Origin: Breznakibacter xylanolyticus
GTDB taxonomy: Bacteria > Bacteroidota > Bacteroidia > Bacteroidales > Marinilabiliaceae
Direction: 5' to 3'
Assembly (NCBI RefSeq): GCF_003254275.1
Contig: NZ_QKZK01000001.1
Location: forward strand, 106,940-170,939
Length of the DNA: 64,000 nucleotides
The notes under the pieces were generated by a model. That model saw only the letters and a list, made by a program, of their open reading frames with translations, ran no database searches and had not been told where the DNA came from. Shown here piece by piece: positions 258-46,014 of the stretch (within the stretch, counting starts at the first letter, position 1; each line of letters begins with the position of its first letter). Position numbers and translations under genes: made by a program.

Positions 258-356
258 TAACAGCTTTTACCGTTTCCCTTAAAGGTTTCAAACCCGGTGT
301 TGGTTTTTGACGTACACCACTTATCCATTGACGAACGCATCTTTTTTGATCGTGGC

Positions 357-3300
357 ATGATGAAGAAATCCTCCTTCCGCACTTGGTTAAGGCTTGGCTG
401 CTGCCTCTTGGCTGGTTGCCTCTTGGCGCATGGCGTGGCGTGGGGACAGATTGCGGCCTCGCCTCTGAATACCTGTAGTGGCGGGATATATCGAATTTCC
501 GATCCGGCGGTGTTGGGGTTTCCCCCCGGCTTATCTAAAGACAATATTGGGATCTGGAGTGCAGTGGAGCTTTCTTCGGGGGATCCTGCAGGGTTGGTAT
601 TTGAGCCACCTACCATTTTTCAAACCTATGTCACCGGTTTTGTGTTGGGTGAAACCTATAAAGTCACATGGAAGAGTGCCAAGAATGGGAAAGATTACGT
701 TTTTTATCTCGAAGCGACTACTGCTGCGACCCCCGGGGTGATAAAGTTTGAGTCTCCGCTCAACTCAGGAACCTGGCAGACAGGAGATATTGTGTATTGC
801 CCGAATATTCCTGAGCCGGAACAACTATTTCAAATTGAAGGTGCTGATATCAGTAGTGTTGAATTTTGGAAGACCGGTTTGCCAGGCTCTTTTTCTACAG
901 CCAATCCCACTTCTTTAACCAGCTACAACAGTAAGGACGAAGTTTGGGGGATTGTTACCAATAGCAATGGATGTGTCTCTTATACGACCAATCGCATCCG
1001 TTTGGCAGAGATGACCCAGACTCAGATTGTGGTTGTAGGAGGTGCATCTGCATGTGGTAGCTCTGTGCCTGCCGGCGTTGAGTTGGAGATACAGCCTTAT
1101 GATGCAGTTGGTTATACATATCAGTGGTATCGGGATGATGGGGCGATCAAATCTCCGATTGGTGGAGCAACCCATCGAACTTATATCATTAATGATTTTG
1201 GAAAGTATAGTGTTGTTGTATCCGGTTGTGCTACCACATTTGAAACCAATCAGGTAAATGTTGAACAGATTGGGTTGTCGTCGGTTTCTATTGCCGGTGG
1301 TGATTTGTGTAAGCCTGGCGATGAACAAACGCTCACCGCGAACCCCGCTCCGGCTGTTGGTTTTGATTATGGGTGGTTTTATGGGGGGGCACCCATTCCG
1401 GGTGAAACGTCATCAACCCTTTCTGCATCCAATGCAGGGTATTATCAGGTCAAGCTCACATCTCAAACAAATGCCGACTGCTATACGATGTCATCCCCAT
1501 TTTCGGTTGATGTCACCAATGTGTGGGCTGAGTGGAGCAAGGCAAATAATTTAGCACCCTTTTGTGCCACAGCACCAGTGGGAGATCGAACACCAAAGAT
1601 GAATCTGACCATCTACAATGGTCAGTCACCTTATGAGGTGACCATTAATGATGGCACCAATTATCAGATTTTGAGTGGCGTTGTCAGTCCTGTAGTCATT
1701 GATGCTGTTCCGGAGATTTCAAGCACGACTGACTACCGAGTGATCAGTATTGTGGATGCCAATGGTTGTGGCGCCCATTCAGACACTCTACCCAAAAATT
1801 CATTGCGTTATGAGGTCGAAGGGATGCCTGTTGTGCAGGATGTCACATTTAGTGGAGGGTGCTCTCAATCTCCCTTGTTGGCAGTGCTCAATAACGCCGA
1901 AGCCAACACGATTTACGAGTTGCGCCGCACCACCCTGGGGGTGGAAACGCTGATTGAAAGCCGCACCCCTTCATCCCCCGGTGGCTTTGCCTTTGCTTCG
2001 CTTCCCATTTCCTCTGCCGGAACTTACAGTGTGGTGGCTCGTGGACTGACGGGTGCGTGTGGTGAGGTGACAATGAACGGAAATCTGACGGTTTTTGATT
2101 CCCCCAACACATTTGTGTTGTCTGCTAATAAGTTGGATTATTGCTTTAATTCCCTGCCTACAGATGTTAAACTTTCACTTTCCGGCTCTCAACCTGGCGT
2201 AGATTATCAGTTACAATGGGACGATGGAACCGGTTTTGTCAATGTAGGTGCTGTGTTGTCGGGTGCTGGCAGTGGGCTTTCGCCTGTCGATTGGCATGAC
2301 CGTCAGGCTGGGGCTTACCGTGTTCTCGCCACAGGTGCCGGCGGGTGCACTCGAGTGATGGATGGTGTGCTGTCGGTGAAAGGGCATTCTTTGCCGGCCG
2401 CCGTGGTATCGGCCGGTTCGCCCAATCGCCGTTGTGCCGATGATGCCACAACATCATTTTATGTGAATGTGGCTTTGAATGGGGAGCCACCATTCAATTT
2501 TCATATTGTCAATGATAAAGGATTGGCCACCATTGAGGTGCGTAACCATTCATCCATGACCGCTACGATATTGGTCAACCCGGCTACGGATATTACTTAT
2601 AAAGTTGAAAATTTAACGGATAAATACAGTTGTGCTCCGGTTGCCGGTTCCGGCGAAGCCCGTTTTTATGTCGACCCCATCCCGGTGATCGACATCACGC
2701 CGGCCGCCCCCTCGGTGTGTGCCGGGTCTCCGGTGACCTTGACAGCCAATGCGGCCAATACCACCGGGGTAAAGACATACACCTGGTCCGATGGTTTGGG
2801 CAGCACCCCCTCGGTGAATTTTACACCTGCCAATACTTTTACTTACGAGGTGGTTGTTACCAATGAATTGGGATGTACCCATACTGAAAATGTCACAGTG
2901 ACCGTGAACCCGGTGCCGGTTGTCCATTCGCTTACGGTTGACAACCTTCTGAATGCTGGCCATTATTGTGAAGATAATTATGAAATTGGGTTGGCAAGTA
3001 CCCAAATTGGTGTGACTTATGATCTTTATAAGGATGGGGTTTATTCATTTCCATTTTCATCGACATCTATTATTGGTGACGGTTCTGCTCATAATTTCCC
3101 TGATGTTAATACCCCCGGCATCTATACTGTTAGAGCCACATCCGCTGTTGGCGGCTGCACAGCCATGATGAACGGCGCCGTTGAGGTGCATGCCAACACC
3201 TTGTCGTTGTCGGTTAAAAGCCGAAATGTTTCGTGTGTATCGGCCAATGATGGATGGGCTGAGGTTGTAGCCTCAGGAGGAGGGGTTCCTTATGTTTATA

Positions 3301-6300
3301 ACTGGGAGAATTCGACCTCTGTGACGGTCTCCACCGCTGCCGTGGCCGATCCTCTGTCTCCCGGGACTTATACCGTCACTGTTACCGATGCTTACGGGTG
3401 CAGTCAGTATGAGTATGTAACCATCACAAAGCCATTGGCTTTGGATGTGGATGTTACGACTTTTGCAGCCACATGTGCTTCTGCGACCGATGGCCGTGCC
3501 ACAGTGTTGGTCACCGGTGGGACGCCGCCTTATCAAATCACCTGGCCCGATGGCACCACCGGCGTGTCTGTGACAAATCTGTCTCCGGGGAATCATGTGG
3601 TTTCGGTGACTGATGCCAATGGGTGTATTCATCCTGAGCTTTTTACCATTAATGTGCTGCTTCCCGTTTTGTCCATTTCAGAGACGCTCGCCGATCATAA
3701 AGATATTCTGTGCCATGGCGATGCCACCGGCGAGTTCAAGGTGGAAGCTTCCGGCGGATCGGGCGCTTATCAGTTTAGCATCGACCGGATCAGTTGGTTC
3801 AATGGCATTGTTGATGAATATACCTTTAAGAATTTAAAAGCAGGTACTTACACCGTTTGGGTGCGCGATGCCAGCAATTCATTGTGTGAGTTAGAGGGAG
3901 CGCCGCCGATAACAATTAATGAGGCTGCAGCATTGTCTGTTGCTTTGTCGTCCCCTGTGATAAACGTCCCCTGTCATGGTGGCACTAATGGGAAGATTGA
4001 AGTCACGGTGTCCGGAGGAACCGGTGTTTTAAATTATCAGTGGTACCGCCTCGTTCCCGGTGACGGTTTGCTCCCATGGCCTGCGGCAGATGGAGGTACA
4101 CCAGCTCACGCGACCAACTTGCCCGCCGGTGACTACCGCGTTCGGGTGAATGATGATAAGGGTTGTACCCTCTGGTCCGATGCCATCACCGTGCAGCAAC
4201 CCGTGAGTCCCATGATGGTTCCGTTGGTGGACATCACCCATGTGTCCTCGTTCGGTGGCAACGATGGAGCCATCACTTTGGGGACGGTCATCAATGGAAA
4301 TGCTCCTTTTAAATATTCCTGGAGTGGTATTGATTTGAGTGGGAATCCGATTCTAGATCTTGTACCTGATATAACTTCACAGACAAATCTTAAAGCTGGC
4401 ACTTATCAGGTCACGGTAACCGATGACAATGGTTGTTCTGTGACCCTCGACCAGTTGGTGGTGTCCGAGACCGACCGCCTCACCATTTTGGTGGCCAAGT
4501 CCGATCCCGCTCCCTGTCATGGTGCTACCAACGGATTCATCCGTGTCACTGCTGCGGGTGGTGATACGCCTTATCAATCCATCACTTTGTCCGATGGTGT
4601 TGTTACGTTGATGCCCGTCAATACCGGATCAACATTTGCCGAGTTTACCGCATTGCCGGCCGGAGCTTACACCGCCACGGTGGTGGATGCCAAAGGCGTT
4701 GCTTTCACCGAGGCGATTTTTCTTACTCAACCCGATGCTTTGCAACTCTCGGTTGATAAGAAAGATGTGTCCTGCCATGGCAGTAAAGATGCTGAAATTA
4801 AAGTGACGATTTCCGGCGGACTCCCGTTTCCTGGGACGCCTGATTATTATGAAGTTGTCGTGACCCCTCCGGTCGGTGCTGTGTTAACAGAGCACGTACA
4901 GTTCGCAACTCCTTTCATTTTTGATCATTTGTCACCCGGCGACTACGCCGTGGTTGTGACCGATTTGAAGGGATGCTCCCAAACTTCTGCCGTGTCCATC
5001 GTCGAGCCCAATGAGGTGACCGCCTCGGTGACCCTGACGCCGGTCACCTGTCATGCTCAAGGAACCGCCACGGCGTCGGTGTCGGGGCGCGATGCATCTT
5101 TCGCGTTTCAGTATGATTGGTACGAGGTGGATGGTATAGGGACTGAAACTTTGCTGATGACCACAGGTCCTTCATCGATTTCAGGTTTAGATGCAGGAAG
5201 TTACCGATTGCGAGTCACTGCATTGAGTGATGCCTGTTTGCCTGTAGATGTTGATTTTTCCATTGATGATGCCCGCCCCGGGACGCTAACCGTAACTCCC
5301 ACTCATGTCACCGGTTGTGCGGGTGATGCCACGGGTGTTCTTCATGTAGAACTGACAGGCGGTAATGCTCCTTATGTGGTTGCGGCCAACGGGTTGTCCG
5401 TGGTCGGGGCAGGCTCCTTCGACCTGACGGGGCTGACCCAGGGAAGCTATACCGTAGGTGCGACCGATGCCAATGGTTGTGCGTTTGCCCCTCAGGTGGT
5501 CATCATCAACGAGCCGTCTCCTTTGGAGGTTTCCCCGTTGAACGTCAAATCCGGTTGTTCAATCAATAGCGGTTCCGTCAGTTTTACCGTTTCGGGTGGC
5601 AATGTTTCGGGCGGCAACCATAGTTATCGGTGGGTGCTCAAAAATGTGACGGGTGTTGTAATAGATGAGACATCATTGGATGTGACATCCGGTTCATCAT
5701 CGTTGTTAAGTGAAGTGGGGTTGGCCGCAGGCGATTATATTCTCACCGTTCGGGACTTGTATTCTACGGCTCCCGATCAGTGTGAGGTCATCCGCACCTT
5801 CACCATCACCGAGTTGGCGGTTTCGGCCACACTGACCCATACAAGTTGCGAAGGGGTTAACTCCGGTGCCATCCACCTGGATGTGACTGGTGGCTCTGGG
5901 AATTATACTTACGTTTGGACTGGCCCCGATGGGTTCTCTGCCGCCACCCAAGACATCACCGGCCTGCATGCAGGCACCTATGCCTTGACATTGAAAGATG
6001 AGGATTGGGGATGCGTTGTCTCGTTAAATTACGATATTGATAATCAGCGCACCCTCTCCATCGACACTTACCTTGAACCGGTTCGTTGCCATGGCGAGAA
6101 CACCGGCAGCATCGAGGTGACCGGCGTGCCCGGCAGTGTGGGAGCACTCTTGTACACCTGGAACGGCACTCCCGGATCAAACCGTTTTGACAACCTGTTT
6201 ACCGGCACCTATCAAATTCGGGTGGAAGACGGCCAGGGCTGTCTGGCTGAAAAGATGGTTGATGTGGTTCAGCCTGATCCCATTGATTTTAAACTCTCAT

Positions 6301-9300
6301 CTTCCCTTGAGGATTGTAGTCATCGTCAAATATTTTTAAGTGAATTGCAAGGTGGTACCGGCGCCTTGAGTGAGTTTCAATACAATTGGTCTGGCTCGGG
6401 TGGGGCAACTGCGAAGGCCGACCTGGCAGGGTTGGATGTTGTCGCTCCGGTTACGCCCTTGCTGACACAACTGACGGTTGGCGGCGACTATGTCGTGACC
6501 GTGCGCGATCGTAACAACTGTTCGGCGATGCGCACAGTGGCCGTGGCAGCACCCTTGTCGGTGACGGCTGCTTTGTCGCATCTCAACTGTGCCGGCGATG
6601 CCAATGGTGCCATTCAGGTGCAGGTGAGTGGCGGGTCGGGTTCATATCAATATCATTGGACGACGGTTGATGGTTCCGGATTGGTGGTTGGCAATGAGGA
6701 TCAAAATGGGTTGACAGCAGGGACTTACGTGGTGACGGTGACGGATGTTGTTGAGAATTGTTCGGTGACGGCATCTTATACCCTCAATGCGCCGGCTTCC
6801 ATCACCATTGATGCACAGTTAACTCACAACCTCTGCCATGGCAATGCCAATGGTTCCATTTTGCCGCAAGTGTCCGGAGGAATGCCAGGGTACACTTATG
6901 CCTGGTCGGCGGTTAATGGCACCGGTCTCGACCCCTTGTCGGTGAACCAGTACGGGCTTACTGCCGGAACCTACAGCCTGAGGGTGCGCGATGCCAATGG
7001 CTGTGAGGCTGTGAAGGATTTCCAAATCAACGAACCCTTTGCGCTTGATTTTGAGGTCGTGGTGAGCAATACTCAATGCGATAATACCAATAGTATCACA
7101 GTTCAGACTCCGAAAGGAGGTTCCGGCTCTTACTCATTTTTGTTGGTTGGCTCCGGCATCTCATCTGAAACATGGGATAATGCGTCTGTCACGGTAAAAA
7201 CATTATCCAACCTCCCCGGAGGGGATTACACCATTGTGATGAGCGACATGGGCGTGGGGCAGCACTGCTCTGTGACGAAAGTGGTGAGTCTCACGCAACC
7301 ACTGGTGGCGACATATCAGGTGGCCGGCGAAACCTGCCCCGGCATGGGCGATGGCCGCATATCCCTTTCGGTGTCGGGGGGAACTCTGCCTTATGCTTTC
7401 CATTGGACACCTGCTCCGGGGATTGTTGCCGGTGCACAAAACCAAAACGCCCTTGCTGCAGGAACATATACAGTGAGAGTGACCGATGGTCGCGGATGTT
7501 TTGTTGATTTAACTGATATTGAAGTCCCATTGCTGCATCAGCTGGTGTTGGGCAGTGGCATCAAGCACGTTCTTTGCAAGGGGGATGCCACGGGTGCCAT
7601 CGACCTGAGCGTTTCGGGTGGTTCGGGCTTCTACCAATACTTGTGGTCGGGTGGCACTGCATCGGGGAAAACCACCGAAGATGTGTCCGGCCTCGGTGCC
7701 GGCTTTTATACCGTAACGGTTTCGGATGATCAGCTTGCCGGGTGTGCTGTCAGTGAAACCTTTCAGGTGAATGAACCTGCTGATGCCTTATCCATATCCT
7801 CTTTGACACATACCGATATTTCCTGTCATGGGTCTGCCGTAGGTACCATTCATCTGGTTGTCGCAGGTGGTACAGCTCCTTATCGATATTTGTGGTCAGG
7901 ACCAATGGCAATCACCGATTCAGAATTCAATCCTACAAATCTCATTGCCGGCAGTTATCAGGTCACCGTTGTTGATGCCAACTTGTGTTCGGTGACCAGT
8001 GATGCCATTGTCATCGACCAGCCGGTGCAGCCTGTTGCCGTATCGTTGGTACAGTTGTTGCCCGTCACGGTGTCGGGTGGCAGCAATGGCGTCATTGAGG
8101 TGGTGGCTTCGGGTGGCGTGTTGCCGTATGTGTCCTATGCTTGGGAGATTGAAGATGGCATCAATCCCGGAAGTTTCATCCCATATCCTCTTGGAACATC
8201 ATATCGTGTCGAAGGATTATCTAAAGGTCATTATCGAGTGACGGTGACTGACGGCAATGGCTGCTCGGGAAGCTCAGTTCCGTATATCATCACTGAGCCG
8301 GGGCAAGCGCTGGCTGTTGAGAAGGTGTTGCTCCGTCCTATTCGTCCCTGTGCCGGCAGTTCCAATGGCGTGATTTCGGTGCAGGTGGTGGGTGGCACAC
8401 CCGATGTCACTTCCGGAACCCCGCTCTATATGTTGGAGTGGTATAAAGATGGCGTGAAACAAGGCTCGCAGCAAGCTGTGACCCTCACCCTCAACGGTTT
8501 GGCGCCAGGTAGTTATCTCTTCCGCGCTCAAGATGGCAATGGTATTTGGTCGCCCGATCAAATTATTGATGTGACCGAACCGATTGTGTTAACAGTGTTG
8601 GCGACGGAGCATCAACCAGTAACCTGCCATAGCGATAACGATGGTGTGGTGCGTGTTGCTGTATCAGGAGGCCTTCCCTCTTTTAGTGGGAATTATAAAG
8701 TAACCCTTTATGGTGCCGGTGCTTCTCAGACCCAAATGGCCAATGGGATTGATGTCGATTTTATCGGGCTTACGGCCGGAAACTATCTGGTTGAGGTGGT
8801 GGATGATGCCAATGGCGATGGTTCATTTAGTTTCGCCGACCCAGTGGCAGGCGATTGCCGTCAGGTGGTGTCGGTGAGCGTGTCGCAGCCCGAGGCCGTG
8901 GTTACGCTCAGTAGGGCAGATGCCGGCGCATTGTGCGATGGTGTGAAACCGCAGTTGCGCATGACGACGACCCACTGGGATGTGGTTGCTCATCCGCTGG
9001 ATGTGACGCTGAGTGATGGCACCATGGTAACAGTCAATAGCTCGCCTTTTGTTTTTGATCCTGACAATGTCCCGTCGGTAGGTTCAACTACTTATGCCAT
9101 CACATCGGTGCATGCACAAGGTGGTACCTGTGTGAAAGGGACAGGGCAGGGCACCGTTCAGGTGGGTGTGTTGGCACGCCCTACGGCGCAGCTTTCTGGT
9201 GGATCGAGTGTGTGTGTGGGCGAACAGTCTTTGCTACGTGTGGATGTCGCCGGGTCAGCGCCCTGGACGGTTGTCTTTACGAATGGCATGATGGTGAGCA

Positions 9301-12300
9301 TCCCGGCAGGTGAAACGGGGGTGGATGTGCCCGTGACACCGATCTCTTCCAATACCTATTCGCTTCTTTCGGTTTCCGATGCCCATTGCAGCGGCACGGT
9401 GAGTGGTTCGGCTACGGTAACGGTTCACCCGCTTCCCGAGGTCACCCTCAGTGGCTCTGCCATGATTTGTGCAGGTCAGCCGACGTCATTGACGCTGACC
9501 ATGCCATCGGGAACAGCGCCTTATCAAATCAACGTGAAGGTGAACGGCATCGAAACCGTTTTAAATAATATTGTCACAAGCCCTTATATCTGGACTGTTT
9601 CACCGTTGGTAACCACCACCTACGAGTTGGTGAGCATCACCGATGCCCACGGATGCAGTCGTGCGGTGAGTGGCGCTGCCGTGGTGACGGTGAACCCGTT
9701 GCCCGGGAATCCGGGTGTTATTGACGGCCCCGATGAGGCTTGTCAGGGAGCCACGGGGCTTGTGTATCGTGTTGACGCCATTCCTCATGCCACGTCTTAT
9801 GAGTGGGAATTGCCCGCCGGTTTCTCCCTCACTTCGGGAAAAGGAAGCCGTGAAATCACCATTGAGGTTGATCATAACGCTTCCACTGATACATTGCGGG
9901 TGCGCGGCGTGAATGGTTGCGGATCTTCGGCCTGGGCAAACAAAAGCGTGCAGGTTGACCGTTTGCCTGATGCGGCGGCGGGTGTCATCACCAGTTTGTC
10001 GGATTCTGTGCAGTTTTGTCAGGGCACCCGTGGTGTGCGTTTCTCTGTCGCCCCGGTGAAAGGTGCTACCGAATACATCTGGCATATGCCGGCCGGCTTC
10101 GCCATTGTCAGTGGACAGGGTTCCACCGGCGTGCTGGTCGATTTGGACGAGCATCAGCATTCCATAACCGGGAATATCACCGTGGAGGCTCGCAATGCCT
10201 GTGGTTCGCGTGGCATTTCTCCTCCCCTGACTGTCACCATCAGTCCCAACCCCTCGGCCAATGCCGGCCCTGATGCACACGTGTGTGCCGATCAGTACGT
10301 GATGAAGGCTGTAGATGCCGGAGTTGGCCATACCGGGTTGTGGGAGTTGTTGCCGGGCAGTGGTTCGGCCAAAGTAGTGACCCCGGATGCCTTTAATACG
10401 GCCTTGAACGATCTTGGGAAGGGCGCCAATACCTTCCGATGGACGGTGACTCACACTGCTACCGGCTGTAAGGCCAGTGATGAGGTTGTGGTTTACAATG
10501 ATTTGCTTACGGTGTCTGCCACAGCCGACCATGATGCCGTTTGCGACGGCAATGCCACTGTTTATGGTACGGCCGTTCCCGATGGTGCCACAGGCGTGTG
10601 GAGTGTTAATCCTGTGGGTGCTTTCATTCATCAGGGAACTTCTGCGACCACGGCGGTGACCGGTTTGGCACCGGGCATGAATCAGTTTACCTGGCGCATC
10701 ACCAAAAACGGTTGCGAGAGTGCTGCCGTGACCACGGTGGTGAACAATGCCCCCGAAACTGCAGTGGTGACCGATTATACCCTGGCTGACGGCACGGTGG
10801 TTGCCTTTACCGGCATCCCTATTCAGTTGTGTGATAACCACCTCACTGTGTCGGCACGACCTGTGTCGAATGCCTCCCTGGGCATCGGTCGTTGGGAACT
10901 CATCAAGGGAACCGCCACCATTGCTGACCCTGCGAGCGCCACCACGAAAATCACCGGCCTGGGCATGGGTGAGAACATCTTGCGTTGGCGGGTGCGTCTG
11001 GCCACCTGCGAGAGCCATGTGGATGTGGTGATTCATAACAATCAATTGTTGGCAGATGCCGGCAAGGATCAAACCACCTGTGGTGATGTGGTGACGCTCA
11101 CTGCATCCCCATCCGTTTCGGCCGGTGTTACCGGAGCATGGAGTGTGTTAACCGATGCCTCAGGGCTGGAACTTGGGCATGCCGTGTTCTCAGCAGGTAG
11201 CAACCATCAAACCACAGCTTCGGCGTTGGCTGTTGGGGATAATTATTTTGTGTGGAGTGTTACTCAGCATGGTTGTGTGAGCCGCGACGTGGTGAAAATT
11301 ACCAGTCACAAACCGACACAGGCGACGGTGGAGACGGGATTGTTGACTTGCGGTGAGGATGCCCGTCTGGCGGCCAACGCTGTAGATACCACTGCGGAGA
11401 CCGGTTTCTGGAGCATTGTGAAGGGTTATGCCGCTTTTGATGATAAAACACGCCGCGATGCCGCTATTTCGAGCATCGCACAGGGTGAAAACATATTCCG
11501 ATGGAATATCCTTCGGAATGGATGTTCTTCGTCGGCCGATTTTGTGGTGAACAACCGCAAGTTACCTGTTTATGCCGGCAAAGATACCGTGATTTGCGAC
11601 CGCAATATTGCCTTGAACGCCAATGCTGCGACAGAAGGTAGTGGCATGTGGCGCGTTAAGGAAGGTGGCGTGACCATCGTGTCGGTGAGTGATCCTAAAA
11701 GCAACGCCAGTTTTGATGCCGGCAAGCATGTGTTGGAATGGGTGATCAATAATCAGGGGTGTTACTCCATTGATGAGGTGGTGATTGTTAACAACACGGT
11801 GACTGCCAACGCCGGCGGTGATCAGGATTTGTTGGGGACGGCCACTTATATGACAGCCGGTGCGTTGAGTGCCGGGGAGACCGGTCGATGGACCGTTGTT
11901 TCGGGCGGCGCTAAGTTTGTCGATATGACGCGGCCTGACAGCTATGTGTCTGAAATTAAAAAAGGGGAGAACGTATTTAAGTGGACTGTCACGAAAGGCG
12001 GATGTGTTGCTGAAGATTTGATTGTGGTCAATAACGGTCAGTCGGTGGAAGCCGATGCCGGGATGACACAGACCGTGTGTGTAAACGAAGTGGAGTTACA
12101 GGCCAACAATCCCGATGGCGGGGTGGGGGTTTGGAGCATTGAGCCGGGTGAAGGGAATGGTTCCGGTGTGTTTGAAAATATCAACAGTCCGCGTACGCGT
12201 GTCACCCACTTGTCGCCCGGTAAGAACGTGTTTCGGTGGACCATTAATTATGCGACCACCTCCACTTACGATGTGGTGGAGATTATCAATAACCAGCCAT

Positions 12301-15300
12301 CAACCGCATTTGCCGGTGTGGATGAATATACCGATTGTTCAGATACCAAGCAGCTGGCCGGCATGCCCGTTCTTTATGGCGATATTGAGTGGATTGTTTC
12401 ATCGGGAAGTGGTGTGTTTAACAATGCCGCCATTCACAACCCCGTGGTGTCCGGATTGTCGCGTGGTCCGAACTTGTTGCGCATGCGTGTTACCAAGGGT
12501 CAGTGTGTGAGCGAATCATCGGTGGTCATCACCAACGATATGCCCGATATTCCCGATGCCGGTAACGACCGCCCGGTGTGCGTCGATTCGGTGATGCTTA
12601 CGCCCAATACGCCAGCCTTCGGTCGTGGGGAATGGATGATACAGGGTGCGAGTACCGCAACTTTCGATGGCAACATGGTCAGAAGCCTTTCGCCCGGGGA
12701 AAACGTCTTTTTGTGGGTGATTAAGACCGAACATTGTCAGTTGTCTGATGCGGTGGTGATTACCAATAATAAACCCACGCAGGCCAATGCCGGGTTTAAC
12801 ACGCCGGTGTGTGACGATCGATATCAGCTGTCGGCCAATGAACCGTCGGCACGAGAAAGCGGGATGTGGACGATCGTGGCTTCGGATGCTTCGTTTGATG
12901 ATGTGCATTCTCCAACGGCCATCGCGTCGGGGTTAAGCCGGGGTGGGAACACTTTCCGTTGGACCATTGATAACCATGGATGCCAGTCGTATGACGAGGT
13001 GGTGGTCTCTTATGATTACATTCAGTCGATGATCAATCCTGTAGATCCCTTGTGTGTGGATACGGCCATGTTGAGAGCCAATAATCCCTATCCGGGTATT
13101 GGCACCTGGAGTGTGATTGCCGGATCCAGCTCGGTGAGCATTGATGATGTGAATAGCCCGGCCACCATTGTGCGGCATCTCGATCAGGGTGTCAATATGT
13201 TGGTGTGGACCATTAAAAATGGAAGTTGTGAGTCGTCGTCGACTGTCAATGTCATCAACAATCAACCCACACAGGCCGATGCCGGGAATGATTTTGGTAC
13301 GTGTGAAGACCATGTTACATTGAGTGCCAACATCGATATGTCGGGTCAGGGGCACTGGGAGCGTTTAACCGGTAATGGCTCCATTGCTGACGAAAACAGT
13401 TCTTATACCAGTGTCTCCGGATTGTCGGTGGGGCGTAACCTGTTCCGTTGGACCATCGAGAATAATGGCTGTTTTTCGTATGATGACGTGGAAGTGTCAT
13501 ATAACAAGATATTTGCACGTGTGGGTGACGATCAATTGGATAATTGCAGTCCTGAAGCGCAACTTCAGGCCAACAATGCTTTGCCGGGCGTGGGTACCTG
13601 GAGTGTGGGCGGCAAAAATGGACAGGCTTACTTTGAGAATGCCAACGACCCGAACTCACGGGTATATAATCTTGGCTTTGGGAAAAACACCTTGCGATGG
13701 ACCATTGTGCATCAGGGATGTGAGTCATCGGCCGAGATGGTTGTGTATAACAATTCGCCCAGCATTGCTTATGCCGGTAATGATGAAGCGGTGTGTGAAA
13801 ATGTGTATGTGCTCGATGCCAGACAGCCCGAAATTGGAGTGGGTAATTGGGAGGTCCTTACCGGTGGCGCACAGGTTGCAGATGCCTTATCGCCCAAGTC
13901 GCCTGTGTCGTCGTTGACGGTTGGTGACAACGTGTTCCGCTGGATTGTTCGTCACGGCAATTGTACGAGTACCGATGAGGTGCTGATAGTCAATAATCGC
14001 CCTTCGCCCCCTTATGCCGGAAAAGACTTACAGGTATGTGTGGATACCCATCCGTTGAAAGCCGATGAGCCGGAGTATGGTCAGGGGCATTGGGACATTC
14101 CCTATGGTTCGGCCATGGTGGATCAACCCAACAGTTCTGTTGCCATGGCATCTAATTTGGCCTATGGACGTAATGTATTCCGATGGACGGTGGTCAATGG
14201 TCAGTGTTCATTATCCGACGAAGTGGAGATTGTGAACAACATGGCCACTCAGTCACGTGCCGGATCCGACATACAAGATTGTAAAAGCAGTGCGGTGCTT
14301 GATGCCAATGTTCCTGTACAAGGTGTTGGAGTGTGGTCGCTGGTATCGGGTAAAGGAACCATTGTAAATCCATCCGATCCCTATACCCGCATTAATGATT
14401 TAAGTTTTGGTGAAAACATTTTTAAGTGGACCATTCAAAACGGAAGCTGTTTCTCAAACGATTTCGTTTCAGTCTTCAATATGACGCCCGATCAGGCCAT
14501 TGCCGGTGCTGATAAAGTTATTTGTGACCATGCCATGTCGATGAATGCCAACGAGCCAAAGTCGGGTGTCGGGCAGTGGACTGTATTGAGTGGTGCCGGG
14601 ACGTTTGAGCAACCGGCAGCTTTCGACAGCCGTGTGGCCGGCGTCGGTTTTGGCATCAATGTATATCAATGGAAAATCAGTTACGGATCGTGCAGCACAG
14701 AGTCGACTGTGACAGTGGTCAACAATCGTTATGAAGCCTATGCCGGTGAAGATGAGGTGGTGTACGAACCATCGGTGGTGTTGCGAGCCACCAAAACAGA
14801 TGAAGCAGTGATCGGTCAGTGGTCGGTGGTGTCGGGAAGCGGCGATTTTGTTGATGGCAATTTCTTCAACACACGTGTTGATAATCTCACCGAGGGGGTG
14901 AATACCTTCCGATGGCTGATTGATGTGAACGGTTGTGTGACTTCCGACGATGTGCATGTGACTTACAAGGTAACCCCCGATGTGGGCTTTATTAGCGACG
15001 TGATTAAAGGATGTTATCCGTTGCGGGTTCAGTTTACCAACTATGCCGTGGGGGGCAATAGTTATATGTGGGATTTTGGAGATGGCGATATATCGGTGGA
15101 GCGTAATCCTGTGCATGTGTTCACCAGGCCGGGCGATTACCGGGTGACGCTTACTGTTCCCGGCCCCGATGGCCGTGATGGTGTGTTTACGTCATTGATA
15201 CGTGTGTATGATCATCCGGTGGCTTCGTTCTCGTTTGATCCGACCGTGGTATATGTGCCCGCTGATGAGTTGCGTTGTTATAACAGCTCCAGTGGTGGCA

Positions 15301-15758
15301 AGACTTATTTGTGGCACTTTGGCGACGGACAAACTTCTACGGAGCTAAATCCCCGCTATGTATACACCACCGCAGGAGTGTATGACTTGCAACTGACCGT
15401 CACCAATGAGTTTGGTTGTGCCGACAGTATGGTGGTTGAACGAGGTGTTGAAGCCATTTTGCAGGGATTCATTGTGTTTCCCAATGCCTTTACGCCGCGT
15501 CCTGTGGATGGTACGATGTCGACATCGTCGCAGGACATGATTTTCCGTCCACGTTATCGCGATGTGGATCAATATCGCCTTCAGATCTTTGATCGATGGG
15601 GGCAGGTGGTGTTTGAGAGCAACGACGTGAATGTGGGGTGGGACGGCATGTATAACGACCGTCTTTCGCCACAGGATGTGTATGTGTATAAAGCCTGGGG
15701 CCATTATGTGAGTGGCCGGGAATTTATGAAGACCGGCAGTGTGCTGCTGGTTCGATAA
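357..15758 (+). CDS. Giant SprB-like type IX-secreted repeat adhesin
   Basis: This encodes a surface adhesin of about 5133 residues. The ATG at 357 (or the next codon, 360) is preferred over an upstream GTG at 297 because a normal signal peptide starts there: lysines, a hydrophobic stretch, and likely cleavage near AWG-Q. Ig-like regions come first, then about 22 SprB-type repeats (residues ~958-2850; typical words are CHG, SGG and GTYTVTVTD). Next are further Ig/PKD-like segments, 19 modules of about 82 residues (~3301-4873), two PKD domains with WDFGDG and WHFGDG (~4874-5032), and a C-terminal type B (gliding-associated) type IX sorting domain (~5037-5133). SprB of Flavobacterium johnsoniae is the family model: a motile surface adhesin used in gliding. 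The gene directly downstream is a PorP/SprF homologue, as expected for such substrates. Adhesion or gliding is inferred from family and context. Confidence 0.9.
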   Translation: MMKKSSFRTWLRLGCCLLAGCLLAHGVAWGQIAASPLNTCSGGIYRISDPAVLGFPPGLSKDNIGIWSAVELSSGDPAGLVFEPPTIFQTYVTGFVLGETYKVTWKSAKNGKDYVFYLEATTAATPGVIKFESPLNSGTWQTGDIVYCPNIPEPEQLFQIEGADISSVEFWKTGLPGSFSTANPTSLTSYNSKDEVWGIVTNSNGCVSYTTNRIRLAEMTQTQIVVVGGASACGSSVPAGVELEIQPYDAVGYTYQWYRDDGAIKSPIGGATHRTYIINDFGKYSVVVSGCATTFETNQVNVEQIGLSSVSIAGGDLCKPGDEQTLTANPAPAVGFDYGWFYGGAPIPGETSSTLSASNAGYYQVKLTSQTNADCYTMSSPFSVDVTNVWAEWSKANNLAPFCATAPVGDRTPKMNLTIYNGQSPYEVTINDGTNYQILSGVVSPVVIDAVPEISSTTDYRVISIVDANGCGAHSDTLPKNSLRYEVEGMPVVQDVTFSGGCSQSPLLAVLNNAEANTIYELRRTTLGVETLIESRTPSSPGGFAFASLPISSAGTYSVVARGLTGACGEVTMNGNLTVFDSPNTFVLSANKLDYCFNSLPTDVKLSLSGSQPGVDYQLQWDDGTGFVNVGAVLSGAGSGLSPVDWHDRQAGAYRVLATGAGGCTRVMDGVLSVKGHSLPAAVVSAGSPNRRCADDATTSFYVNVALNGEPPFNFHIVNDKGLATIEVRNHSSMTATILVNPATDITYKVENLTDKYSCAPVAGSGEARFYVDPIPVIDITPAAPSVCAGSPVTLTANAANTTGVKTYTWSDGLGSTPSVNFTPANTFTYEVVVTNELGCTHTENVTVTVNPVPVVHSLTVDNLLNAGHYCEDNYEIGLASTQIGVTYDLYKDGVYSFPFSSTSIIGDGSAHNFPDVNTPGIYTVRATSAVGGCTAMMNGAVEVHANTLSLSVKSRNVSCVSANDGWAEVVASGGGVPYVYNWENSTSVTVSTAAVADPLSPGTYTVTVTDAYGCSQYEYVTITKPLALDVDVTTFAATCASATDGRATVLVTGGTPPYQITWPDGTTGVSVTNLSPGNHVVSVTDANGCIHPELFTINVLLPVLSISETLADHKDILCHGDATGEFKVEASGGSGAYQFSIDRISWFNGIVDEYTFKNLKAGTYTVWVRDASNSLCELEGAPPITINEAAALSVALSSPVINVPCHGGTNGKIEVTVSGGTGVLNYQWYRLVPGDGLLPWPAADGGTPAHATNLPAGDYRVRVNDDKGCTLWSDAITVQQPVSPMMVPLVDITHVSSFGGNDGAITLGTVINGNAPFKYSWSGIDLSGNPILDLVPDITSQTNLKAGTYQVTVTDDNGCSVTLDQLVVSETDRLTILVAKSDPAPCHGATNGFIRVTAAGGDTPYQSITLSDGVVTLMPVNTGSTFAEFTALPAGAYTATVVDAKGVAFTEAIFLTQPDALQLSVDKKDVSCHGSKDAEIKVTISGGLPFPGTPDYYEVVVTPPVGAVLTEHVQFATPFIFDHLSPGDYAVVVTDLKGCSQTSAVSIVEPNEVTASVTLTPVTCHAQGTATASVSGRDASFAFQYDWYEVDGIGTETLLMTTGPSSISGLDAGSYRLRVTALSDACLPVDVDFSIDDARPGTLTVTPTHVTGCAGDATGVLHVELTGGNAPYVVAANGLSVVGAGSFDLTGLTQGSYTVGATDANGCAFAPQVVIINEPSPLEVSPLNVKSGCSINSGSVSFTVSGGNVSGGNHSYRWVLKNVTGVVIDETSLDVTSGSSSLLSEVGLAAGDYILTVRDLYSTAPDQCEVIRTFTITELAVSATLTHTSCEGVNSGAIHLDVTGGSGNYTYVWTGPDGFSAATQDITGLHAGTYALTLKDEDWGCVVSLNYDIDNQRTLSIDTYLEPVRCHGENTGSIEVTGVPGSVGALLYTWNGTPGSNRFDNLFTGTYQIRVEDGQGCLAEKMVDVVQPDPIDFKLSSSLEDCSHRQIFLSELQGGTGALSEFQYNWSGSGGATAKADLAGLDVVAPVTPLLTQLTVGGDYVVTVRDRNNCSAMRTVAVAAPLSVTAALSHLNCAGDANGAIQVQVSGGSGSYQYHWTTVDGSGLVVGNEDQNGLTAGTYVVTVTDVVENCSVTASYTLNAPASITIDAQLTHNLCHGNANGSILPQVSGGMPGYTYAWSAVNGTGLDPLSVNQYGLTAGTYSLRVRDANGCEAVKDFQINEPFALDFEVVVSNTQCDNTNSITVQTPKGGSGSYSFLLVGSGISSETWDNASVTVKTLSNLPGGDYTIVMSDMGVGQHCSVTKVVSLTQPLVATYQVAGETCPGMGDGRISLSVSGGTLPYAFHWTPAPGIVAGAQNQNALAAGTYTVRVTDGRGCFVDLTDIEVPLLHQLVLGSGIKHVLCKGDATGAIDLSVSGGSGFYQYLWSGGTASGKTTEDVSGLGAGFYTVTVSDDQLAGCAVSETFQVNEPADALSISSLTHTDISCHGSAVGTIHLVVAGGTAPYRYLWSGPMAITDSEFNPTNLIAGSYQVTVVDANLCSVTSDAIVIDQPVQPVAVSLVQLLPVTVSGGSNGVIEVVASGGVLPYVSYAWEIEDGINPGSFIPYPLGTSYRVEGLSKGHYRVTVTDGNGCSGSSVPYIITEPGQALAVEKVLLRPIRPCAGSSNGVISVQVVGGTPDVTSGTPLYMLEWYKDGVKQGSQQAVTLTLNGLAPGSYLFRAQDGNGIWSPDQIIDVTEPIVLTVLATEHQPVTCHSDNDGVVRVAVSGGLPSFSGNYKVTLYGAGASQTQMANGIDVDFIGLTAGNYLVEVVDDANGDGSFSFADPVAGDCRQVVSVSVSQPEAVVTLSRADAGALCDGVKPQLRMTTTHWDVVAHPLDVTLSDGTMVTVNSSPFVFDPDNVPSVGSTTYAITSVHAQGGTCVKGTGQGTVQVGVLARPTAQLSGGSSVCVGEQSLLRVDVAGSAPWTVVFTNGMMVSIPAGETGVDVPVTPISSNTYSLLSVSDAHCSGTVSGSATVTVHPLPEVTLSGSAMICAGQPTSLTLTMPSGTAPYQINVKVNGIETVLNNIVTSPYIWTVSPLVTTTYELVSITDAHGCSRAVSGAAVVTVNPLPGNPGVIDGPDEACQGATGLVYRVDAIPHATSYEWELPAGFSLTSGKGSREITIEVDHNASTDTLRVRGVNGCGSSAWANKSVQVDRLPDAAAGVITSLSDSVQFCQGTRGVRFSVAPVKGATEYIWHMPAGFAIVSGQGSTGVLVDLDEHQHSITGNITVEARNACGSRGISPPLTVTISPNPSANAGPDAHVCADQYVMKAVDAGVGHTGLWELLPGSGSAKVVTPDAFNTALNDLGKGANTFRWTVTHTATGCKASDEVVVYNDLLTVSATADHDAVCDGNATVYGTAVPDGATGVWSVNPVGAFIHQGTSATTAVTGLAPGMNQFTWRITKNGCESAAVTTVVNNAPETAVVTDYTLADGTVVAFTGIPIQLCDNHLTVSARPVSNASLGIGRWELIKGTATIADPASATTKITGLGMGENILRWRVRLATCESHVDVVIHNNQLLADAGKDQTTCGDVVTLTASPSVSAGVTGAWSVLTDASGLELGHAVFSAGSNHQTTASALAVGDNYFVWSVTQHGCVSRDVVKITSHKPTQATVETGLLTCGEDARLAANAVDTTAETGFWSIVKGYAAFDDKTRRDAAISSIAQGENIFRWNILRNGCSSSADFVVNNRKLPVYAGKDTVICDRNIALNANAATEGSGMWRVKEGGVTIVSVSDPKSNASFDAGKHVLEWVINNQGCYSIDEVVIVNNTVTANAGGDQDLLGTATYMTAGALSAGETGRWTVVSGGAKFVDMTRPDSYVSEIKKGENVFKWTVTKGGCVAEDLIVVNNGQSVEADAGMTQTVCVNEVELQANNPDGGVGVWSIEPGEGNGSGVFENINSPRTRVTHLSPGKNVFRWTINYATTSTYDVVEIINNQPSTAFAGVDEYTDCSDTKQLAGMPVLYGDIEWIVSSGSGVFNNAAIHNPVVSGLSRGPNLLRMRVTKGQCVSESSVVITNDMPDIPDAGNDRPVCVDSVMLTPNTPAFGRGEWMIQGASTATFDGNMVRSLSPGENVFLWVIKTEHCQLSDAVVITNNKPTQANAGFNTPVCDDRYQLSANEPSARESGMWTIVASDASFDDVHSPTAIASGLSRGGNTFRWTIDNHGCQSYDEVVVSYDYIQSMINPVDPLCVDTAMLRANNPYPGIGTWSVIAGSSSVSIDDVNSPATIVRHLDQGVNMLVWTIKNGSCESSSTVNVINNQPTQADAGNDFGTCEDHVTLSANIDMSGQGHWERLTGNGSIADENSSYTSVSGLSVGRNLFRWTIENNGCFSYDDVEVSYNKIFARVGDDQLDNCSPEAQLQANNALPGVGTWSVGGKNGQAYFENANDPNSRVYNLGFGKNTLRWTIVHQGCESSAEMVVYNNSPSIAYAGNDEAVCENVYVLDARQPEIGVGNWEVLTGGAQVADALSPKSPVSSLTVGDNVFRWIVRHGNCTSTDEVLIVNNRPSPPYAGKDLQVCVDTHPLKADEPEYGQGHWDIPYGSAMVDQPNSSVAMASNLAYGRNVFRWTVVNGQCSLSDEVEIVNNMATQSRAGSDIQDCKSSAVLDANVPVQGVGVWSLVSGKGTIVNPSDPYTRINDLSFGENIFKWTIQNGSCFSNDFVSVFNMTPDQAIAGADKVICDHAMSMNANEPKSGVGQWTVLSGAGTFEQPAAFDSRVAGVGFGINVYQWKISYGSCSTESTVTVVNNRYEAYAGEDEVVYEPSVVLRATKTDEAVIGQWSVVSGSGDFVDGNFFNTRVDNLTEGVNTFRWLIDVNGCVTSDDVHVTYKVTPDVGFISDVIKGCYPLRVQFTNYAVGGNSYMWDFGDGDISVERNPVHVFTRPGDYRVTLTVPGPDGRDGVFTSLIRVYDHPVASFSFDPTVVYVPADELRCYNSSSGGKTYLWHFGDGQTSTELNPRYVYTTAGVYDLQLTVTNEFGCADSMVVERGVEAILQGFIVFPNAFTPRPVDGTMSTSSQDMIFRPRYRDVDQYRLQIFDRWGQVVFESNDVNVGWDGMYNDRLSPQDVYVYKAWGHYVSGREFMKTGSVLLVR
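3228..8905 (+). repeat. SprB-type repeat array within the adhesin
   Basis: About 22 degenerate protein repeats of 75-95 residues. Each begins with a Cys-containing word such as CHGxxxG, continues through a beta-rich SGGxxPYxYxW segment, and ends with GTYTVTVTDxxGC. The count is by eye and includes several weak members (for example those starting near 4230, 7075 and 8035) that lack the opening cysteine or vary in length. Copies differ strongly at DNA level, so this is an old protein repeat and not a recent tandem duplication. Confidence 0.8.
10257..14973 (+). repeat. Array of 19 modules of about 82 residues (W/FRWT modules)
   Basis: Nineteen consecutive modules share this pattern: DAGxD, a Cys, LxANxP, GxGxW, a glycine-rich stretch, LxxGxNxFRWTI, a second Cys, DxVxIxNNxP. 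Most modules carry two cysteines that could form one disulfide each. The first cysteine is missing in modules 7 (near 11806-12045) and 19 (near 14735-14973). The second is missing in module 8 (near 12049-12303). The pattern is distinct from the SprB repeats upstream. I cannot tie it with certainty to a named domain family. Confidence 0.75.
15466..15755 (+). other. Type B type IX sorting domain at the adhesin C-terminus
   Basis: The last ~97 residues contain the landmarks of the gliding motility-associated C-terminal domain (TIGR04131-like): FPNAFTP near the start, a RLQIFDRWGQVVFES strand, a GWDG turn, and a final VYVYKAWGHY...GSVLLVR strand. Such domains direct export through the type IX translocon. 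Unlike type A domains, they generally need a PorP/SprF-type partner, which is the next gene. Confidence 0.85.
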
Positions 15759-15768
15759 TGACATGTGA

Positions 15769-16836
15769 ATGATAAAACGATTTAAGATATTTATTTGTCT
15801 GTTGGTATTGTTGGTGATGACCGGAGCAAGCACGATGCTACACGGTCAGGATCCTGCTTTTTCGCAGGCGTATATGTCGCCACTGTATTTGAGTCCTTCT
15901 TTCTCGGGGTTAACCACCGGGTCGCGAGTGGCCATGTCGCTGCGCGATCAGTGGCCTTCCATTCCGGGGACTTACACCAATGTGGCGCTGTCGCTCGATC
16001 ATTATGTCCCGCGGTACAAGAGCGGTATTGGGTTGCTTTATGCACGAGATGATCGGGGGAGTGGCTTGTTGGTGACCCAGGACGTGGGTTTTCTTTATTC
16101 CTATGAGCTGGAGGTGATGCACGGGATTTATGTGCGTCCCGGACTGGCTTTTAAATATGCCCAGCGACACATTGATGCTTCGCGCATCGTTTATGGCAGT
16201 CAGTTGGATGCCAATGGCGCATTGTTGCCCGGTTTTGTTCCTGTGTTTGACCGGCAGTCATATCACAAGCTCGATGCTGCTGCTTCGGCCATGATTTACA
16301 GTGACTTTTTTTGGTTGGGTTTCACGGCCGATCATTTGGTGCGCAACAACATTGGATATACTGACATTGAGACCCATGTGCCGGTTAAGACGGTTGTTTT
16401 TTGCGGGTACAAATACAAGTACAAAGAGCGTTATCGCAATCAGGATGAACAAAGTGTGACTTTTGCCCTCAATTATTACCGACAGCAGGATTTTCAGCAG
16501 CTCGACCTGGGTGCGTATTGGTATATGGCACCCTTTGAATTAGGGGTGCTTTATCGCGGGTTGCCATTTTTAGAGGTGTCGGAATATTCGAACAATGATG
16601 CTTTGGTGATGATTCTGTCAGTGACCTTGGGGAGTATTCAGTTCGGATACAGTCACGATTTCACCGTGAGTGGGTTGGCCGCCCAGAGTGGAGGTGCCAA
16701 TGAAATAGGGTTGATTTATCGTTTCAATCAAAATTATGAGTCCAAACCCTATCGGGGAGCCCTGCCTTGTTCCGGTTCCGGCGTCATTAGCGGGGGAGGG
16801 AGCAGTCGTAAAGGCAAGTCACGGAAAATATTTTAG
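15769..16836 (+). CDS. PorP/SprF family type IX secretion membrane protein
   Basis: This 355-residue protein has an N-terminal signal peptide (hydrophobic core LLVLLVMTGAS, cleavage near HGQ). The family signature follows: DPAFSQAY, an L-SPSFSG-like segment, then SLRDQWPSIPGTYTN. Members are outer-membrane beta-barrels that attach to or help secrete specific adhesins; SprF serves SprB in F. johnsoniae. The gene starts 10 bp after the adhesin stop, so the two are almost certainly co-transcribed. The C-terminus ends in a basic, glycine/serine-rich tail (GGGSSRKGKSRKIF) instead of a canonical barrel-closing aromatic strand. Family assignment is firm; its pairing with the upstream adhesin is inferred from adjacency. 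Confidence 0.9.
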   Translation: MIKRFKIFICLLVLLVMTGASTMLHGQDPAFSQAYMSPLYLSPSFSGLTTGSRVAMSLRDQWPSIPGTYTNVALSLDHYVPRYKSGIGLLYARDDRGSGLLVTQDVGFLYSYELEVMHGIYVRPGLAFKYAQRHIDASRIVYGSQLDANGALLPGFVPVFDRQSYHKLDAAASAMIYSDFFWLGFTADHLVRNNIGYTDIETHVPVKTVVFCGYKYKYKERYRNQDEQSVTFALNYYRQQDFQQLDLGAYWYMAPFELGVLYRGLPFLEVSEYSNNDALVMILSVTLGSIQFGYSHDFTVSGLAAQSGGANEIGLIYRFNQNYESKPYRGALPCSGSGVISGGGSSRKGKSRKIF

Positions 16837-35144: not shown

Positions 35145-35326
35145 TCGCCCCGGGGCGAAACCTTGCGCCAGGCATCCGGCAGCCTTTCGCCCCGGGGCGA
35201 AACCTTGTCCTACGCATTGGGGGGACTTTCGCCCCAGGGCGAAACCTTGCGCCACGTGTTGGGGAGACTTTCGCCCCGGGGCGAAAGTCTGAACGATGCT
35301 TCGGTCTCAATTTCGCCCCGGGGCGA
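35145..35326. repeat. 42-bp tandem repeat carrying a CG-rich palindrome
   Basis: The palindrome TCGCCCCGGGGCGA starts at 35145, 35187, 35229, 35271 and 35313, exactly 42 bp apart; the third has one substitution. Spacers share the words AAACCTTGCGCC and GGxxxxCTT but diverge elsewhere. Read on the plus strand the unit encodes a 14-residue word beginning SPRGETLR in an open frame of 74 codons (35109-35333). Both complementary frames also stay open. No start signal or partner gene supports translation. Confidence 0.9.
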
Positions 35327-44520: not shown

Positions 44521-46014
44521 ATGAAGTTTGTTCCCAGTATTTTCATTGCACTGATGGCAATCGGATTAATGACCTCCTGTTCAAAAGGAGGTAAAACTGT
44601 TTCATCGACAACCGGATGGAACTACAATGACCCGGCAAATGGTGGGTTTGAGTATAACTACGGCTATGAGCAACAGACCGGTCCCGGTTTGGTGTTTATC
44701 GAAGGTGGTACGTTCATCATGGGACGTGTGGAGCAGGATGTAATGTTTGACTGGGATAATAAGCCCCGTCGCATAACAGTTCCTTCATTCTACATGGATG
44801 AATCTGAGGTTCGTAACGTCGATTATTTAGAATATCTATTCTGGATTAATCGTGTATTTATCGAGTCTCGTGAAGTTTACAAAAAGGCATTGCCCGACAC
44901 CTTGGTGTGGCGTCGTCCTTTGGCTTACAATGATCCTTATGTTGAGAATTACCTTCGTCACCCGGCTTACAGTGAATATCCCGTGGTAGGCGTTAGTTGG
45001 TTGCAAGCCAATGATTATGCTGCCTGGCGTACCGATCGTGTCAATGAAATGATTTTGATTGATATGGGTATCATTGATGGTGAATCGTTGAAGTCTCAAT
45101 TGGGCGAAAACAACTTTAATACCGAAGCTTATTTGTATGGACAATATCCCGTTGCAGACGGTAAACGTCCTTTGACAAAACTGGATGATAGTAAAACCCC
45201 TCGTCGAGTTACTTGGGAAGATGGAATCATGTTGCCTAAGTATCGTCTCCCAACTGAAGCTGAATGGGAGTATGCTGCCACTGCTTTGATTGGGAATACG
45301 ATGGACGAACGCATGAGTGATCGCCGGATTTTCCCTTGGAATGGTCACATCGTTCGAAATTCAGATAAGAAGGAACAAGGAAAAATGATGGCCAACTTTG
45401 TTCGTGGAAATGGTGACATGATGGGTACTGCCGGTAAGTTGAATGACCAAGGTGATATTACTGTTCCTGTGAAGTCGTACTACCCTAACGATTATGGTCT
45501 GTATTGCATGGCCGGAAACGTGAACGAATGGGTTGCCGATGTTTATCGTCCATTGTCTTTTGATGATGTTGAAGAATTTAATCCTTATCGTGGTAATGTA
45601 TTCCAAACAAAAGTACTTGACGAAGAAGGCATTCCTGTTGAGAAAGATGAGTTGGGAAAAGTACGTTATCGTACCGAGGCTGAAAAGGATATTTTGAATC
45701 GTAAAAACTATCGTACTGCTGATAACATCAATATTTTGGATGGTGACCGCTCTTCAAATATTGTTTTGGGCGATGCCTGGTTGGATAATGAAGCGAATAC
45801 GACAAACATGTATGGTGGTTCTTCCAACTCAAATATGAACAGCATGATAACTGACCGTACCCGAGTATATAAGGGGGGATCTTGGAGAGATCGTGCTTAT
45901 TGGTTGTCTCCCGGTACGCGACGATATCTTGATGAGCGTGAGAGTCGCGATGACTTAGGTTTCCGTTGTGCGATGATTCGCGTTGGTAAGCCTGTTCAGG
46001 GTGAAGCTAAGTGA
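44521..46014 (+). CDS. gldJ: Gliding/type IX secretion lipoprotein GldJ
   Basis: The 497-residue lipoprotein has a lipobox (GLMTSC, Cys20) and a formylglycine-generating-enzyme-like (SUMF1) domain. The diagnostic GldJ opening is TGWNYNDPANGGFEYNYGYE, then PGLVFIEGGTFIMGRVEQD. Later parts include YRLPTEAEWEYAA, GLYCMAGNVNEWVADVYRP and GGSWRDRAYWLSPGTRRYLD. GldJ is needed for gliding and stabilises GldK/GldN-type components. The related paralogue GldK (PorK) is the main alternative, but the opening motif and the porU-porV neighbourhood favour GldJ. A terminator follows. Confidence 0.92.
   Translation: MKFVPSIFIALMAIGLMTSCSKGGKTVSSTTGWNYNDPANGGFEYNYGYEQQTGPGLVFIEGGTFIMGRVEQDVMFDWDNKPRRITVPSFYMDESEVRNVDYLEYLFWINRVFIESREVYKKALPDTLVWRRPLAYNDPYVENYLRHPAYSEYPVVGVSWLQANDYAAWRTDRVNEMILIDMGIIDGESLKSQLGENNFNTEAYLYGQYPVADGKRPLTKLDDSKTPRRVTWEDGIMLPKYRLPTEAEWEYAATALIGNTMDERMSDRRIFPWNGHIVRNSDKKEQGKMMANFVRGNGDMMGTAGKLNDQGDITVPVKSYYPNDYGLYCMAGNVNEWVADVYRPLSFDDVEEFNPYRGNVFQTKVLDEEGIPVEKDELGKVRYRTEAEKDILNRKNYRTADNINILDGDRSSNIVLGDAWLDNEANTTNMYGGSSNSNMNSMITDRTRVYKGGSWRDRAYWLSPGTRRYLDERESRDDLGFRCAMIRVGKPVQGEAK

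Follow-up and report, generated by a model that had tools for sequence, protein, structure and literature searches.

The window analysed here, a stretch of 64,000 nucleotides from Breznakibacter xylanolyticus (contig NZ_QKZK01000001.1 of assembly GCF_003254275.1, positions 106,940 to 170,939), contains near its start the gene for a giant adhesin, at 297..15758. Like all features below whose positions are written with two dots, the gene lies on the forward strand; it is one intact open reading frame (ORF) of 5153 amino acids from GTG, with the true start likely to be the ATG at 357, giving a signal peptide that begins MMKKSSFRTW. From the N-terminus, the signal peptide is followed by immunoglobulin-like (Ig-like) domains, a region of SprB-type repeats (PF13573; 3237..8927, residues ~981-2877) and Ig/PKD-like domains that include two PKD_6 domains (PF19408) at 9705..10244. 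An array of 19 modules, M1-M19, here called FRWT modules, then occupies 10245..14969 (residues 3317-4891), and the chain ends with two PKD domains, the second of them (PF18911) at 15231..15476, and a CHU_C signal of the type-B type IX secretion system (T9SS) at 15480..15692. The PF13573 matches are strong in both pieces of the protein preceding the array (E 5e-88 and 7e-24), and CHU_C scores 33.9 bits against a cut-off of 27, while TIGR04131 falls just under its own at the same C-terminus (33.2 bits; cut-off 35). A phmmer query found no relative in the PDB for the Ig and PKD_6 domains that precede the array.

The array had been noticed in a first-pass annotation made from the sequence, and its description there proves sound in most respects. 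Exactly the nineteen modules claimed are found, the proposed span of 10257-14973 is essentially right and the module consensus is correct. The modules are indeed part of a giant adhesin and distinct from the SprB repeats upstream, as they are from the PKD_6 pair just before them and the PKD and CHU_C domains just after. They are 77-98 residues long, most often 81-82, and share on average 31% pairwise identity (range 20-47%), with W32 and G57 invariant and G30, N59, W63 and C70 nearly so. Scored with a profile from which it had been left out, each module reached between 52.8 and 93.7 bits, against at most 12.6 bits for shuffled copies, taking the best score from 200 shuffles per module. Two features of the array were missed in that annotation: the fixed count of 19 and a ladder of cysteines.

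The cysteines occupy two sites, C1 between strands A and B (column 14 of an 81-column module profile) and C2 between strands F and G (column 70). In 15 of 15 genomes, M7 lacks C1, M8 lacks C2 and M19 lacks C1. The remaining positions carry both cysteines across these genomes, save that M15 is without C2 in one and that M3, which has two cysteines in all 15, in five of them has its first cysteine elsewhere than in column 14. The first PKD domain after the array has C1 and lacks C2, the FG cysteine. If C1 of one module pairs with C2 of the next, M7/M8 and M19/PKD1 are simply junctions from which both partners are missing. Across 49 FRWT arrays aligned to the module profile, the presence of C1(n) and C2(n+1) is strongly correlated (phi 0.634, p 2.5e-29), with phi values of only 0.001 for C1 and C2 of the same module and 0.025 for the reverse pairing, C2(n) with C1(n+1). 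Disulfides within modules are thus disfavoured, as are C2(n)-C1(n+1) bonds. Since the losses match across junctions and not within modules, inter-module disulfides are implied; C1(n) and C2(n+1) lie some 137 residues apart, so that no shift of the module boundaries can place both in one domain.

The same pattern was then sought in 565 SprB-type repeats from the same ORFs, a test made after the hypothesis had been formed and so not post hoc. These repeats also have both cysteines, at columns 12 and 69 of their 81-column profile, and their junction phi is 0.714, rising to 0.77 in the host family, by which we mean the relatives of Breznakibacter, whose nearest named records are Marinilabiliaceae. 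The other correlations are slightly negative, at -0.122 within a module, -0.118 for the reverse pairing and -0.036 for the next module but one, and here too they speak against both intra-module and reverse disulfides.

When the cysteines of the B. xylanolyticus adhesin are simply paired in order, the k-th C1 with the k-th C2, 53 pairs result, all 130-169 residues apart, which use 106 of the 107 cysteines of the mature protein and leave four junctions without both partners. The chance of four matched losses at random is about 2.5e-6, a post hoc figure for which a few rod-end cysteines were typed by hand. Two of these predicted unstapled joints lie among the SprB-type domains: one near residue 1403, between domains 1319-1402 (no C1) and 1407-1491 (no C2; together 4251..4769), and another near residue 2683, between 2593-2680 (no C1) and 2686-2775 (no C2; 8073..8621). 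The third is M7/M8 (11796..12293), seen in all 15 genomes, and the fourth M19 with the first PKD domain (14727..15230). The twelve modules M8-M19 (12036..14969) would accordingly be predicted to form one continuously stapled rod; outside the host family the comparable rod has 10 modules. The sole unpaired cysteine of the mature protein, residue 4994 (15276-15278), is in the second PKD domain.

The first-pass annotation had been unable to place the modules in a named family, and here it was mistaken: taken singly, they have strong matches among the C-terminal domains of GhpA, and their fold is of the PKD/Ig kind. When solved structures were searched with a profile built from all 19, 11 modules of GhpA from Aureispira sp. 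CCB-QB1 were matched (residues 4757-5718), with E 1.2e-97 in all and independent E-values (i-E) down to 5e-13 for single modules; the PKD domain of KIAA1837 came next, at E 1.8e-4. Solved structures of GhpA include PDB 9FLY, its base, and 9FLP, its neck (Lien et al. 2024, cited in PMC13319060). A structure model of M13, with a predicted local distance difference test (pLDDT) score of 95, superposes on residues 4755-4837 of the 9FLY base with Z 13.6, a root-mean-square deviation (rmsd) of 1.4 Å and 35% identity. The next-best structural match is a PKD domain, 2YRL, with Z 10.8 and 2.1 Å over 81 residues. Both by sequence and by structure, then, the modules are PKD/Ig-like beta-sandwich domains related to the base modules of GhpA, of whose 11 homologous modules the first three fall within the solved base. 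The first-pass annotation had said that its view would be refuted if single modules strongly matched domains whose structure is known, and to a large extent such a match now exists; its interpretation as a whole is partly supported.

In Pfam and NCBIfam, no single module scored above the cut-off of any model. The closest was PF22352, the K319L-like PKD family (KIAA0319, KIAA1837/2YRL, AAVR), with a best single-module E of 1e-3 and 19.5 bits against a gathering score of 27; six of the 19 modules match it at E<=1, and 27 bits is exceeded only when the whole stretch is summed. The modules share the fold of this family and a weak sequence similarity to it, and they differ in lying under its cut-off and in having conserved cysteines at two sites and an FRW[TI] signature. 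The base domain connects a gliding-type adhesin to a grappling hook, and in the copies of Pfam and NCBIfam searched it has no name. The structure prediction for consecutive modules that the annotation had suggested was made for M16-M18 (13998..14726), on 17 sequences, and reached a pLDDT of 96.7, remaining at about 95-98 through the linkers; together with the putative inter-module disulfides, this favours the stiff stalk that the annotation had envisaged. The three-module model fits the GhpA base modules at 4755-5009 with Z 15.8.

The number of modules is constant in the host family. Nineteen were counted directly in 15 genomes, and two others, G004 with 20 matches including one split pair and G012 with 4+15 across a break, also fit 19, so that all 17 complete arrays agree; G010 has 18 modules in an array at a contig edge. 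Modules are orthologous by position: of 3,990 comparisons between genomes, 72% gave a best match in the corresponding place of the array, where about 5% would be expected, with mean identities of 43-57%. In six genomes, 262-268 residues separate the end of the last module from the C-terminus. The length before the array, by contrast, varies from 3316 residues in B. xylanolyticus to roughly 10,500 in G004. By these comparisons the length of the stalk is conserved and the reach is not, the SprB-containing part being very variable in length. The giant gene is not found in every relative, G009 and G015 having few module matches. Outside the host family, contiguous runs can have other lengths, of about 15, 45 or 60 modules. 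Across the phylum, 296 sampled genomes include 30 with FRWT modules, 78 with SprB repeats and 24 with both, where 7.9 would be expected.

A few further occurrences were noted. Three other ORFs of the adhesin's own genome (G000), of 1483, 680 and 307 amino acids, have two modules each (C1:51109-51591, C14:47207-47944 and C73:1735-2250). Runs of 44-60 modules are present in the Bacteroidota records L036, L040, L041 and L043, and in L040 and L043, from goat and deer samples, no SprF-like gene stands beside them. This Bacteroidota gene is also present on a contig (L035) assigned to the archaeon Methanohalobium, probably through an error in the binning of that metagenome-assembled genome.

Directly after the adhesin ORF comes a gene for a PorP/SprF-family carrier (15769..16836), which scores 158.7 bits with PF11751 and 174.3 bits with TIGR03519 (cut-off 90.55). 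Carrier and adhesin genes adjoin in 26 records, B. xylanolyticus included. The periplasmic tail of the carrier has exactly one cysteine, residue 334 in B. xylanolyticus, which is part of a PC motif and invariant in 26 of 26 sequences (B. xylanolyticus and 25 orthologues); outside the host family it lies four residues from the end, in PCPxF. PorG of Porphyromonas gingivalis, with one tail cysteine, is a precedent for such a carrier. Elsewhere in the window are genes for GldJ, the gliding-track lipoprotein (44521..46014; TIGR03524, 475.8 bits against 458.2), for PorU next to it (40163-43939, reverse strand) and for PorV beside PorU (38957-40102, reverse strand), while SprA is encoded a few kilobases upstream of the adhesin (L064:2-5275). 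Judged by sequence, the adhesin is of the SprB type, a type-B T9SS substrate encoded next to its PorP/SprF carrier. It resembles SprB of Flavobacterium johnsoniae, whose carrier is SprF, in being a giant type-B substrate with SprB repeats and an adjoining carrier gene, in a genome that encodes GldJ. It differs in the single cysteine, rather than Cys-X-Cys, of the carrier tail and in its modules: FRWT modules are missing from 54 of the 78 sampled genomes that carry SprB repeats. Also in the window, a 42/84-base tandem repeat at 35145-35326 immediately precedes an ORF predicted to encode a fatty-acid-CoA-ligase-like protein.

The explanation that we favour, with a probability of roughly 0.7, is that the 19 modules are the cell-proximal stalk of a SprB-type adhesin, stapled by inter-module disulfides into jointed rods. 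Where Ig-type folds follow one another in tandem, each domain has its AB turn at its C-terminal pole, facing the FG hairpin at the N-terminal pole of the domain that follows. The T9SS would export the adhesin, which its PorP/SprF carrier would anchor; the AB-turn cysteine of each module would bond to the FG-hairpin cysteine of the following one, stapling each junction to give a stiff stalk, and the four junctions without both cysteines, two in the SprB region and those at M7/M8 and M19/PKD1, would act as joints between rods. The rods may then keep the tip, with its SprB repeats, at a distance from the cell and pass on force from the carrier, whose invariant tail cysteine probably connects it to the gliding/T9SS track. 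Several copies may bundle, as those of GhpA do. Nothing relevant on disulfides between the domains of such adhesins was found in a literature search, and an earlier description, for example in the 2024 GhpA paper, may exist.

Several points weigh against this explanation. The disulfides are suggested by co-loss, and the geometry of the poles comes from general knowledge of the Ig fold, not from coordinates; the superposition of M16-M18 on the GhpA base has an rmsd of 6.7 Å over 237 residues, implying that the angles between domains differ or are imprecise. Discordant junctions number 31 of 665 in FRWT arrays and 30 of 500 in SprB-type repeats, some of them being misalignments. In nine arrays outside the host family no SprB-type co-losses were seen. 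In 17 further loci, mostly of another class, the three correlations lie close together (0.43, 0.44 and 0.36) and the cysteines are nearly saturated; in the two of these that were inspected by eye, several apparent losses were misalignments. This sample includes L093 (G282:C1), with FRWT-like arrays without any cysteine, and cysteine-free arrays raise all correlations. The 17 loci speak neither for nor against the rule. The genomes are related and losses are inherited, so that the p-values overstate independence. Finally, the Cys-X-Cys motif is absent from the tails of the 26 carriers compared, whereas that of F. johnsoniae SprF is disulfide-bonded to GldK (PMC12635249).

How the cysteines are used might be explained more simply. 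They could bond within their own module, as is usual in Ig domains, or stay reduced, the array being an ordinary PKD-like spacer; both cysteines are present in nearly all modules, and the cysteine-free modules of the L093 lineage would fit. Yet this would leave M7, M8 and M19 with lone cysteines in all 15 genomes and set a nil or negative same-module phi (0.001 and -0.12) against strong values across junctions (0.63 and 0.71), and the AB turn and FG hairpin are known in general to be at opposite poles of the fold. We consider it decidedly unlikely. Less probable still is a role for the modules in adhesion, as ligand-binding domains rather than a stalk. PKD and Ig domains can bind ligands, and the position-specific conservation could reflect different binding sites, but the array adjoins the membrane anchor and has a regular pitch, and the homologous part of GhpA was deposited as 'base'.

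A grappling-hook appendage for catching prey, like GhpA, is an unlikely though slightly better candidate. The GhpA base is the closest solved relative of the modules, both proteins are giant chains of Ig-like domains, and AB-turn and FG-hairpin cysteines are also present in the stretches of the GhpA neck that were looked at; GhpA has been described (PMC13319060) as heptameric, with a monomer that spans the filament. The heptamer is shown for GhpA, which has 11 such modules to the 19 here. Similarity is limited to these C-terminal modules: residues 1-2468 of the adhesin have no GhpA match at E<=0.01, so that it is no whole-length orthologue, and they contain SprB repeats, named for the gliding adhesin. 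The adjoining PorP/SprF carrier and the encoded GldJ likewise favour a gliding-type adhesin. As to the count of 19, a frozen accident is a possibility to be taken seriously, if short of an even chance: at about 31% amino-acid identity the modules may be too diverged for easy homologous recombination, and their number could be fixed without selection on length. Against this, the SprB-containing part of the same genes varies from roughly 3,300 to 10,500 residues, and other counts, of about 15, 45 and 60, do occur outside the host family.

Whether the disulfide-stapled stalk exemplifies something broader is evenly balanced. The giant T9SS adhesins of Bacteroidota, of both SprB and GhpA types, may be covalent chains with a C1(n)-C2(n+1) bond at nearly every junction, in which conserved omissions mark the joints between rods of set length. 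If the staples are real, they would explain how a chain of more than 5,000 residues can bear load in gliding or attachment, and the cysteines would let stiff segments and joints be read from the sequence throughout a very large and poorly understood class of proteins.

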